Assembly: GCA_016841325.1 (NCBI GenBank)
Contig: JAENZJ010000010.1
Location: 30,371 to 94,370, forward strand
DNA: 64,000 nucleotides
Source: Thermincola carboxydiphila
GTDB lineage: Bacteria > Bacillota > Thermincolia > Thermincolales > UBA2595
Direction of reading: 5' to 3'
The notes under the pieces are model-generated. The model did not search any database and was not told the DNA's origin. It was given only the letters and a program-made list of their open reading frames with translations. The number at the start of each line of letters is the position of its first letter. Within the stretch, counting starts at the first letter, position 1. Below, piece by piece: positions 4,723 through 63,283 of this stretch. Position numbers and translations under genes: made by a program.

Positions 4723-4809
4723 TATCTAAAACAGTGGGTCCATCAGCATCGGACCCATCGGCATCATCAGTAGACGCAGCAGGTGAAGTTTACCGAGGTG
4801 GTGAATAAG

Positions 4810-5127
4810 GTGAATTTTTCTGATTCCCCCAACTACCCGGCAGATGCGTACTACTTTGTTTATGGCACACTCCTGAAAGATATCACCAGAACGGAATTCC
4901 TGAAAATCATTAACCAATTGGAAAATACCAATGAAAATGCAGAGTATCAGGTTAGTGTCATGGGACCCCGGCAGCAGTATCTGTGGGTAGGAGTACAGTC
5001 CCGTGTGCGGGATAACAGTTCCAGAAGAGAAATGGGCATAAGAATCCATATACGCCTGTTTGGTCATAATCTCACAAATAACTGGGTTGTATTTCAGAAA
5101 CCGCAGCTGTTTAAACATCTGAATTAA
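4810..5127 (+). CDS. unknown 105-residue protein
   Basis: The frame is open from GTG 4783, but GAGGTGG at 4795-4801 lies eight bases before another GTG at 4810, which I prefer as the start. The product is soluble and has alternating strands and a central helix (TLLKDITRTEFLKIINQLE), with a C-terminal part rich in Arg and Phe (IRIHIRLFGHNL). No known family is recognised. It has its own promoter and terminator and is convergent with leuS, so it is an isolated transcription unit. A hairpin repeat follows it. Confidence 0.6.
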   Translation: MNFSDSPNYPADAYYFVYGTLLKDITRTEFLKIINQLENTNENAEYQVSVMGPRQQYLWVGVQSRVRDNSSRREMGIRIHIRLFGHNLTNNWVVFQKPQLFKHLN

Positions 5128-5130
5128 TAC

Positions 5131-5160
5131 AGGGCCTTTGAAAAGGCCTTGTTTATTTTA
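5131..5160 (+). terminator. intrinsic terminator of the 4810 gene
   Basis: GGCCTT and AAGGCC pair around a short TGAA loop just after the stop codon, followed by the T-rich TTGTTTATTTT. Confidence 0.75.
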
Positions 5161-5175
5161 AAAACCTGAGCCTTC

Positions 5176-5372
5176 AATTGTTATTAAGATAGGGGTAGAT
5201 ATGTTCCGGAAGGCGGAGTCTGTCGTCCGTCCAGGACAGTCGAACGGGCTCTTTGCGCTTTAGCGCTTAGAGCCCGTTGTACCCTTTGGGTAGACCCGCG
5301 AAGCGGGAGCTGTTGCCGGCGGAGATGTTGCCCGCCGGAGGAATATATCTACCCCTATCTATGTTACAATTA
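5176..5372. repeat. palindromic dispersed repeat, long copy
   Basis: About 37 bp at each end form imperfect inverted repeats around a shared AGGGGTAGATAT core (left 5191-5202, right end as its complement at 5347-5358). Inside lie further hairpins: AACGGGCTCT...AGAGCCCGTT (5242-5278), TACCC-TTT-GGGTA (5280-5292) and CCCGC-GAA-GCGGG (5296-5308). A 62-bp relative occurs at 46611-46672. There is no open frame. It sits between convergent genes. It has the look of a MITE- or REP-like element, or of a structured RNA. Confidence 0.75.
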
Positions 5373-5378
5373 GATATC

Positions 5379-7853
5379 CTACTTTACCACAATATTAACC
5401 AGTTTTTTTGGCACTGCGATAACCTTAACCACCTGCTTGCCTGATATCATCTCCATAACCTTTTCCTGCTCCAGGACATATTTTTCCATTGCGGCTTTAT
5501 CCATATCAGCCGGCACCGTCATCCGGTTTTTAACCTTGCCATTAAGCTGGACAACTATCTCTACTTCGTCCTGAACAAGGGCTGCCGGGTCATAAGCCGG
5601 CCAGGGCTGTTTATGCACACTGTCGGTGTAACCCAGTTCATGCCACAGTTCTTCGGCAAAATGGGGTGCAAAAGGCGCCAGCAGTATTACCAGGGTATTT
5701 ATTGCCTCGGCCTCAATGGAACTGTTGCGGACAGCATTCTTCTCCCGGTACTGGTAGAGCCAGTTAACGAATTCCATTATGGCGCTGATGGCCGTATTGA
5801 AGTTAAATCTCTGGTTTACATCATCAGTTATTTTTTTGATGGTATAATGAGTCAGCCTCCTGGTCTCCTTATCAGCTTCAGAAATTTCTTCTGAGCCGGA
5901 AGCTTCATTTAGCTTGTCGATATATGAATAAACCAGGCGCCAGACCCTGTTGAGGAACCTGTAAGCGCCTTCAACCCCGGCATCACTCCACTCCAGGTCA
6001 CGCTCCGGGGGAGCTGCAAATAAAATAAACAGGCGCGCCGTATCTGCACCGTATTTGGCCACAGTCTCTTCAGGGCTTACGGTATTCCCCTTTGACTTGG
6101 ACATCTTGGCACCATCCTTGAGGACCATACCCTGAGTCAGCAGGTTGGTAAAAGGTTCATCAAAATTAACCAACCCCTGGTCCCTGAGCACCTTTGTGAA
6201 AAATCTGGAATACAGCAGGTGCAGGATAGCGTGTTCAACCCCGCCGATGTACTGTTCAACCGGCATCCAGTAAGCAACATTTTCTTTTGTAAAGGCATTC
6301 CGGTCATCATGGGGGCTGCAATACCTCAGGAAGTACCATGATGAACAGATAAATGTATCCATGGTATCTGTCTCCCGCCGGGCCGGTCCGCCGCATGCAG
6401 GACACACTGTATTTACAAAAGAGTCACACTCAGAAAGGGGTGACTGGCCTGTTGGCTTAAATTCCACGTCAGTGGGCAGGTGTACCGGAAGCTGTTCCTC
6501 AGGAACCGGGACCTCGCCACACTTATCACAGTATATGATGGGAATGGGGGCACCCCAGTACCGCTGCCGCGAAATGAGCCAGTCCCTGAGCCGGAAATTG
6601 ACCATTGCCCTGCCAATACCCTTTTCTTCCATATGTGCAGTAATATTCTTTATGGCCTCTTCATTATTCTGCCCGTCAAAGGGACCCGAATTGACCAGAA
6701 CTCCTTCAGCATCATAAGCCTGGGTCAGCTGTACATATTTGTCGGAAACCCCGTCCGGCAAAATAACAACCCTTATCTGCAGCCCATATTTAGTGGCAAA
6801 GTCAAAATCCCTCTGGTCATGTGCCGGGACCCCCATGACAGCACCGGTCCCGTAGTCCATCAACACATAATTGGCAATAAACAGGGGGATTTTTTCGCCA
6901 TTCATGGGATTTATTACATGGGCCCCGGTGAATAGTCCTTCTTTTTCAGCATCTGCCGAAGTCCTGTCAATTTCACTCAAATTCTGCATCCGGCGCACAA
7001 AATCACGGACACTGGCTTCATATGGGGTCCCTATGGTCAGTTTTTCCACCAGCGGATGTTCCGGAGCCAGGACCATGAAGGTTACCCCGTAAATGGTGTC
7101 AGGCCGGGTGGTATATACTGTAATTACTTCATCCGTACCGTCCACCGAGAACTTCACCTCTGCCCCCTCACTGCGTCCAATCCAGTTCTCCTGCATGATT
7201 TTAACCTTGTCTGGCCATCCTTTAAGCTTTTCAATATCGGCAAGGAGTCGGTCAGCATAGTCAGTAATCTTAAGGAACCACTGGGACAGGCCTTTTTTTT
7301 CAACACTAGTCCCACAGCGTTCACAGGCTCCGTTGACAACCTGTTCATTGGCCAGGACCGTAACACAGCCCGGGCACCAGTTTACGGCAGCGTGTTTCTT
7401 ATATGCCAGGCCGTTTTTATAAAACTGCAGGAAAAGCCATTGGGTCCATCTGTAATAGTCCGGAGTGCAGGTGGTTACCTCTCTGTCCCAGTCATAGCTG
7501 AAACCCAGCCGTGATAGTTGTTTTCTCATGTTTTCGATATTACTCATTGTCCACTGATATGGATGGATGCCATGCTTAATGGCTGCATTTTCTGCCGGAA
7601 GTCCGAAGGCATCCCAACCCATGGGATGCAGGACATTATATCCCTGCATGGTCTTTACCCTGGCTACCACATCACCAATGGAATAATTCCTCACATGTCC
7701 CATATGCAGGTTCCCAGACGGATAAGGAAACATCTCCAGGCAGTAATACTTTTCCCTTGAATCATCATTATCAACAACCTTGTACAAACCGGTTTCTTCC
7801 CATATTTTCTGCCATTTGGTTTCAATTGCCGAAAAATCGTAGCGTTCGTTCAC
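5379..7853 (-). CDS. leuS: leucyl-tRNA synthetase
   Basis: Class I synthetase charging tRNA-Leu in the cytoplasm. Signatures: the HIGH motif as HMGH within [16 protein letters not shown], the KMSKS loop in [10 protein letters not shown], an editing (CP1) domain between them and a Zn-type CPGC/CERC pair. GTG 7853 is the start because AGGAGAGGAGAT lies directly before it; eight codons upstream in the open frame are untranslated. This gives 824 residues, normal for bacterial LeuRS. The acyl-CoA ligase gene is 81 bp upstream with no terminator visible between. The leucine T-box in front of that gene probably regulates both. Confidence 0.97.
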
Positions 7854-7934
7854 GTTATCTCCTCTCCTAAGCAGCATAATTTCTCAGCAGCCGGTAAGCT
7901 GCTTTATACACCGGCCGCAGGCAACTGCATGCAG

Positions 7935-9705: not shown

Positions 9706-9955
9706 ATAAAAAACCCTTCATCCCGTAGGGACGAAAGGCTGCTTCCGTGGTACCACCCAAATTGGCATCCGAATATCTCCGGTTCTGCCCACTCATTTTG
9801 CAGGATAACGGACTGCCCGGCGCAGACTACTGGGAAAATTAATTTCACCTGCGCATCTCAGGGATGAGTTCAAGGACCTTTCCCTACTGCCTTGCACCTT
9901 CCGGCAGCTCTCTAAAGAGGCACCGGCCCTCTAATAATTCCCGTCATTGATTTGC
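9706..9955 (-). promoter_or_regulatory. T-box leader, leucine specifier (CTC)
   Basis: Read on the minus strand this has the AGAGAG box of Stem I, a specifier region GAA-CTC-A (near 9865-9871) and the T-box GGGTGGTACCACGG (about 9744-9757). It ends in a terminator hairpin (CGTCCCTACGGGATGAAGGG type) with TTTTTT. CTC is a leucine codon. Uncharged tRNA-Leu should bind and allow read-through. The first gene downstream is the acyl-CoA ligase, with leuS second. Confidence 0.9.
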
Positions 9956-9981
9956 CAATATTTAAACATAATACGTATGTT

Positions 9982-46596: not shown

Positions 46597-46682
46597 TAAA
46601 TAAGTAAAGGGGTAGAAATGTCCTCCGGCGGGCAACATCTCAACCGGCATCCGGAACATTCCTACCCCTGTCTTATTTATAG
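46597..46682. repeat. palindromic dispersed repeat, short copy
   Basis: Core 46611-46672. In minus orientation it matches both ends of the long copy at 5191-5358: AGGGGTAGGAATGTTCCGGA corresponds to the left end, and GAGATGTTGCCCGCCGGAGG to the right end. The internal hairpin section is missing. Flanks add an outer inverted repeat (TAAATAAG...CTTATTTA). It lies between hndC and hndB. Confidence 0.75.
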
Positions 46683-59307: not shown

Positions 59308-59555
59308 TAAAAAACTCCCTCATCCCGTAAGGACGAAAGAATCTTCCGCGGTACCACCTTAATTCCGGACACCTTTTTAAAGGCGCCGGCTCTCTGCTTC
59401 GCTGTAACGGGCTGCCCGGAACCACCTACTTAGGAATGTTCGGCGACACAACTCCGGAGCGACTTCGAATTCTGCAGCCATCAGGGGGACTCTCAGCCAG
59501 GGGCCCCCCCTCTCTGTGAGGTCATGAATCCTACTACTCTCCTTCAACGTCTCTA
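59308..59555 (-). promoter_or_regulatory. T-box leader, valine specifier (GTC)
   Basis: Minus-strand reading gives an AGAGAG box, specifier GAA-GTC-G near 59463-59469, T-box GGTGGTACCGCGG (about 59346-59358) and a terminator hairpin (CGTCCTTACGGGATGAGGGA type) with TTTTTT. GTC is a valine codon, as expected in front of valS. Confidence 0.93.
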
Positions 59556-59581
59556 ATAGATTGCATTTGTCTGAATTATAT

Positions 59582-63091: not shown

Positions 63092-63190
63092 TTCTCCACC
63101 TCTTTCTGCATACATTAAAATATGCAGAAATGATGGAATTAATGACCTTAAAAAAGTGTTAGAAGGGAGCCATCTTCTTCACAACAAGAA

Positions 63191-63235
63191 AGTGGCAGAC
63201 ATATTCCTTCATCCTTCCGGAACATGTCTGCCACT
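63191..63235. terminator. intrinsic terminator after ysxC
   Basis: AGTGGCAGACAT (63191-63202) pairs with ATGTCTGCCACT (63224-63235). T-rich sequence follows on both strands, and the minus-strand use ends ysxC. Confidence 0.8.
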
Positions 63236-63283
63236 CTTTAATTTTAAGCAAATTTTCTCCCAAATTCAGTAATCTTCTCAGTA

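Follow-up and report, generated by a model that had tools for sequence, protein, structure and literature searches.

A gene-less mobile element of the Thermincola-centred class inserts at terminator-like hairpins and copies the entire target

Introduction

The IS1182-family elements IS1272 and TnSha1 select stem-loops, mostly terminators, by structure and not by sequence, and the target hairpin is deleted or replaced (PMC4923244, PMC5678879). This stem-loop targeting is a property of only some members of the family (PMC4923244). The outcome that we describe below was drawn by Wan et al. (2017, PMC5678879), as a theoretical pathway only. Transposons that read the shape of their target are thus far known from a few IS1182-type cases, all of which destroy that target.

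Dispersed elements with a conserved structure are also known: bcr1 of the Bacillus cereus group is a non-autonomous element of ~155 bp, reported to keep its secondary structure. The MITEs of prokaryotes carry short direct repeats, such as the 7–9 bp repeats of QMITE2 (PMC10969869).

Here we analyse a palindrome with nested hairpins that lies beside leuS in Thermincola carboxydiphila, within a window of 64,000 nucleotides. A first-pass annotation of the window had proposed that the palindrome belongs to a dispersed family, and that it may be a non-autonomous element or a structured RNA.

Results

The element beside leuS

The palindrome occupies positions 5176–5372 (197 bp) between two convergent genes, a small ORF on the + strand (4783–5127) and leuS on the − strand (5379–7877), whose 3′ end abuts it. 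Its interior contains no gene, as annotated. The + strand is the conserved folding strand. The RNA fold of this region has a predicted energy of −111.4 kcal/mol, as compared to −65.3 ± 4.6 kcal/mol for shuffled sequences (z = −10.1), and none of the 200 shuffles equalled it. The annotation had described terminal inverted repeats of about 37 bp. Arms of this kind do exist (5176–5207 and 5340–5371, 32 nt each, 84% complementary), but they represent the inner closing stem of the element, whose true outer ends are no longer preserved in this copy.

In the predicted fold, the closing stem P1 is a 21-bp helix between 5187–5207 and 5340–5360, corresponding to helix 1 of the covariation alignment. It encloses an irregular core and three further hairpins, in line with the annotation of at least three. 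The 5′ half of the conserved core (5208–5242) contains a GGAA loop, P2 and GAGTCTGTCGTCC, the apical hairpin CCCGC-GAA-GCGGG is located at 5295–5307, and the 3′ half (5308–5339) contains GCCGGCGGAGATGTTGCCCGCCGGA; these parts were assigned from both the fold and the covariation. The fold and the comparison of copies further delineate an additional domain of ~50–60 nt, composed of an extra hairpin (5243–5278), which includes a 17-nt inner inverted repeat, and the small hairpin TACCC-TTT-GGGTA (5280–5292). This domain is also present in L002, L211, L213 and one copy of genome G007, and is absent from the leuS copies of the two congeners, G001 and G002. Another hairpin domain, CTGGGGGTCCCCCCGATCCGTCG...GGATTGGGGGCCCC, is found at one fixed place of the core in many copies (L204, L205, L208–L211 and L213), as well as in L007 and L021 of the window genome (G000); L211 and L213 possess both domains.

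Family size and distribution

A blastn search of the window genome with the element returned 61 matches, many of which are fragments of the same copies. With a covariance model derived from 11 full copies, 36 distinct places were identified in this genome at E ≤ 0.01, including 19 strong ones, after the matches of the two strands were merged by hand. The proposed dispersed family is thereby established, and the alternative that the genome holds only two copies is refuted. Within the window, the family is represented by the short form that had been noticed earlier (46608–46675, − strand; C43:76974–77043) and by a second one (63183–63242, − strand; C43:93557–93609). The element is therefore short, gene-less and present in many dispersed copies, like a MITE.

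All 10 of the class genomes carry the element, with 14–100 matches each when both strands are counted. Among the 388 genomes of the phylum outside the class, to which stricter filters were applied, one had a match, and this was weak, with a score also attainable by an unrelated hairpin. The family thus spans the Thermincola-centred class. The genomes are mostly drafts, and orthology was judged by the flanks for some loci. No Rfam covariance model, including HEARO, matched the window element at gathering level, and relaxed thresholds at related loci gave only chance-level matches. In the same window, two T-box leaders (RF00230) scored above the gathering score, at 9724–9956 (−) and 59326–59556 (−). 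No gene recurs beside the elements in ~57 loci, inspected mostly with 1.5-kb flanks, except for frames within the element and a few protein families common to 2–4 loci.

Insertion duplicates the target hairpin

The younger copies in G001 and G002, which belong to the genus of the window genome, extend outward into imperfect terminal repeats of ~45 bp, ending in ...TTTGTCAA...CTG. The outer ends of this type 1 read 5′-CAG.YT..TGACAAA..., and a second subtype, type 2, is characterised by ...TGTCCCATAAG.... Terminal inverted repeats, as in MITEs, are thus present in the type-1 and type-2 copies of the relatives, whereas the window copy, which is of type 1, has lost them.

Immediately outside both outer ends of the younger copies, the same hairpin is found in direct orientation. 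Examples of these duplicated hairpins are ACCGGATGCCTGAAACATCCGGT (L109), CAAGGAGAATACTTCTCCTTG (L099) and CAGAGGCGGCCTGATGACAGGCCGCCTCTG (L287), and L290 is flanked by a duplicated hairpin of 38 bp. With mismatched flank pairs as the control, 28 of the 58 copies tested have a direct repeat above the 98th percentile, a count that includes two type-2 terminal repeats (L111 and L126), some orthologues and some places fetched twice. About 23 independent sites have direct hairpin copies, 15–38 bp in length, so that a check of the flanks for target duplications, which the annotation had suggested, gave a positive answer. Most of the duplicated flanks fold far better than their shuffles; those of L205, L210 and L283 do so weakly. 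We had also considered the outer arms as the loops of hairpins hosting an inserted element, and replaced this interpretation by outer terminal repeats with direct duplication of the hairpin.

For five insertions, the empty orthologous sites hold a single hairpin. The empty counterparts of L133 are L187 in G002 and L195 in G000, with the hairpin GATTAGGGCAGCCTAAGGCTGCCCTAATC and a compensatory change in G000. Those of L099, L098, L114 and L113 are L188 in G000, L186 in G001, L189 in G002 and L192 in G000, respectively. L109 was rejected as a pair of this kind, since the relative has a larger change there. The filled and empty sites, together with the hairpin duplications, demonstrate that the element is mobile, that it inserts at terminator-like stem-loops and that it copies the entire stem-loop. 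Target duplications and empty sites are both properties of MITEs, and the targeting of stem-loops is a trait of IS1182-family derivatives. The IS1272-like outcome, in which the target hairpin is deleted or replaced and not duplicated, does not apply to these sites. The copies in the window genome look old, consistent with the loss of the mobiliser.

Positions of the copies and transcription termination

The copies almost always lie downstream of a gene. Gaps between convergent ends account for 17 of the 44 copies, as compared to 4 of the 39 other gaps, and gaps between divergent ends for 1 of the 44; this classification relies on crude gene calls, which misassigned the window copy itself. Directly 3′ of leuS, the element is present in G000, G001 and G002 (loci L082, L083 and L084), in the same orientation in the first two and inverted in G002, probably by a flip between the arms of the element. 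The outermost repeats are missing from all three. In the window, the element entered the space between leuS and the convergent gene long ago, and its outer ends have decayed away. In G002, the element alone separates leuS from the convergent gene, and therefore one or both of the transcripts may terminate there.

Could the family be primarily a bidirectional terminator, with the copies kept for ending convergent transcripts and mobility serving only as the means of spread? The enrichment in convergent gaps, the arrangement in G002 and the retention of the stems after insertion all argue for this explanation. However, a consensus terminator scan called no U-run terminator within the window copy, and the only one called there belongs to the upstream + strand gene (5129–5152) and is separate from the element. 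Moreover, the complex conserved core far exceeds what a terminator needs, and many insertions lie next to a terminator that was already there and have even copied it. We therefore regard this explanation as doubtful, although it retains appreciable weight. A more limited role, in which the window copy now helps to end leuS transcription, as had been annotated, is plausible and may apply.

Some target hairpins (AGTGGCAGATATCTGCCACT-like; the flanks of L211, L213 and L220, and window positions 63183–63242) look like collapsed closing stems of the element, as if decayed copies became terminators and fresh targets.

The fold is conserved on one strand

We examined the fold in 93 distinct copies, in an alignment that was fitted to the model and hence leans toward structure, and in which the kinship of the copies inflates the cell counts. 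Standard pairs occupy 97.6% of the core cells, versus 79.8% after shuffling. Both sides have changed in 36 of the 44 pairs, with 761 double-change cells versus 203 in the shuffled control, and the covariation score is 0.550 versus 0.207. Sliding the partners by 1–3 columns abolishes the signal. The covariation thus exceeds the controls, as expected for a structured RNA, and the compensatory stem changes that the annotation had proposed to look for are present. On the given strand, G·U cells outnumber A·C cells by 358 to 19, two inner pair positions are nearly always wobble pairs, and the core loops hold conserved unpaired positions. Because of the excess of G·U over A·C, selection seems to act on one strand, the + strand in the window, as RNA or single-stranded DNA (ssDNA). 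The two annotated alternatives, a structured RNA and a non-autonomous element, therefore hold together.

Compensatory changes can also arise by quasi-palindrome correction, in which DNA template switching between the arms restores complementarity and the structure matters only as a cruciform in transposition. In line with this, the complementarity of the arms reaches well past the core, G002 has its leuS copy in the opposite orientation, and the arms of some copies seem to reach into the 3′ ends of genes. Such correction should produce perfect palindromes, whereas here conservation extends to wobble pairs and to unpaired positions of the core, and a cruciform shows both strands equally, whereas G·U cells exceed A·C cells by 358 to 19. 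As a full explanation, palindrome correction is unlikely. Part of the covariation could nevertheless derive from it: the double changes that keep pairing between copies at orthologous sites (L032/L067 and L038/L131) fit selection and palindrome correction alike. At L107, L112/L115 and L130, the copy-specific arms seem to run as inverted copies into the 3′ ends of the adjoining genes, possibly by template switching at the palindrome.

A putative transposase partner

Pattern and BLAST scans of G001 and G002 for an autonomous IS with type-1 ends recovered short elements only. For four single-ended matches (L271–L274), an automatic search up to 480 bp away yielded no convincing second end. In G007, three elements sit between an IS end with a type-2 terminal repeat and decayed transposase genes of the IS1182 family (NF033551), and the + strand of the element is antisense to the transposase. 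The best transposase pieces are 42–57% identical to the intact transposase of G004; the genes in G007 are fragments. Three of the four such transposase loci lie within ~250 bp of an element, with an estimated chance of ~2% each (~42 elements in 2.2 Mb), which is unlikely to be a coincidence, although two of the three G007 loci resemble each other as copies. The type-2 ends are common to the element and to decayed IS1182-family ISs in G007 and G005; the G007 loci tie the IS1182 family to type-2 ends, and not directly to type 1.

L319 (G002:C2:12500–16000) was rejected as an autonomous copy, as it contains another IS lying inside an element. This IS remnant (~1100–1750) has the ends GTGTGAAAACC and an N-terminal fragment of an IS1182-type transposase, and the palindromic target CTGACGTCAGACT is found on both sides. 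The hairpin element is itself, in this instance, the target of a related IS.

A SINE-like retrotransposition, in which the folded RNA is reverse-transcribed into nicked terminator hairpins in a target-primed manner and leaves duplications of variable length, would account for the RNA-like covariation of one strand, the varying duplication lengths and the choice of terminators as targets. The machinery of group IIC introns likewise prefers terminators. The terminal inverted repeats and the adjacent IS1182-type transposase remnants argue against this route. In addition, G000 and G006 carry elements and have no RVT_1 (reverse transcriptase) match, and G001, despite its recent insertions, has only one interrupted reverse transcriptase fragment. 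Retrotransposition is accordingly very unlikely. Still less credible, to the point of being nearly negligible, is a REP/BIME-type element mobilised by a transposase of the Y1 (RAYT) kind: the palindromes are dispersed and extragenic, and G001 and G002 do have Y1_Tnp genes, but G000, G004 and G006 carry elements and have no Y1_Tnp (PF01797) match, and duplications are the rule for this element, while Y1 movement is not known to make any. A reverse transcriptase and a Y1 transposase were both rejected as the partner, since each is absent from G000, which has elements.

Discussion

The dispersed family, with its strand-specific fold, its filled and empty sites and its duplicated hairpins, probably represents a MITE-like, non-autonomous mobile relative of the IS1182-family insertion sequences, and the window copy would be an old insertion without its ends. 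We propose the following mechanism. A full copy would consist of ~45-bp outer terminal repeats around a long irregular hairpin with the conserved core. A transposase provided in trans, which we infer to be a DDE enzyme of the IS1182 type, would recognise the target stem-loop by its structure, presumably as a cruciform and usually at the terminator after a gene. The 3′ ends of the element would then be joined to the stem-loop at its 5′ feet, and repair of the gaps would leave a copy of the whole hairpin on both sides. This cruciform-foot model is directly testable, as it predicts that the duplication length tracks the hairpin length.

The core may function as RNA or ssDNA, either in mobility or in the control of the transposase. 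One specific version, a long shot at present, is that the core is an RNA or ssDNA cofactor of DDE-type transposition, which helps to find the stem-loop or to pair the ends. If this were true, the element would represent a transposon that is guided by structure, assisted by a nucleic acid and able to duplicate entire terminators. In any case, a gene-less element that couples mobility to a fold conserved throughout a class needs explaining. Because some copies are now reduced to simple hairpins, the element may also supply its hosts with spare terminators.

How does the element compare with the known systems? Like bcr1, it is a dispersed non-autonomous element that keeps its structure; bcr1 differs in sequence and host group and is not known to have the same target. 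Group IIC introns share the preference for intrinsic terminators, whereas the element has neither an intron core nor a reverse transcriptase inside and possesses terminal inverted repeats and target duplications. With REP/BIME sequences and their RAYTs, it shares dispersed extragenic palindromes; unlike them, it is much longer and multi-domain, makes target duplications, and occurs in a window genome that lacks the Y1 transposase. Like the prokaryotic MITEs (PMC10969869), it is short and gene-less, with terminal inverted repeats, direct repeats at its ends and many intergenic copies, and its transcripts would fold into stem-loops. In contrast to ordinary MITEs, it duplicates the very hairpin that it targets, and its core displays deep strand-specific covariation.

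The closest resemblance in the mode of jumping is to the IS1182-type elements. As with IS1272 and TnSha1, insertion occurs at a stem-loop, in most cases the terminator that follows a gene, and related transposase remnants adjoin the elements in G007. However, IS1272 deletes or replaces the hairpin without duplication, whereas the Thermincola element duplicates all of it, is gene-less and has a conserved folded core. The element thereby shows, in nature, the outcome that Wan et al. (PMC5678879) drew theoretically, with the transposase assigned by inference. Its jumping resembles that of the known IS1182-type elements, while the copying of the hairpin and the conservation of the fold seem to be novel features.
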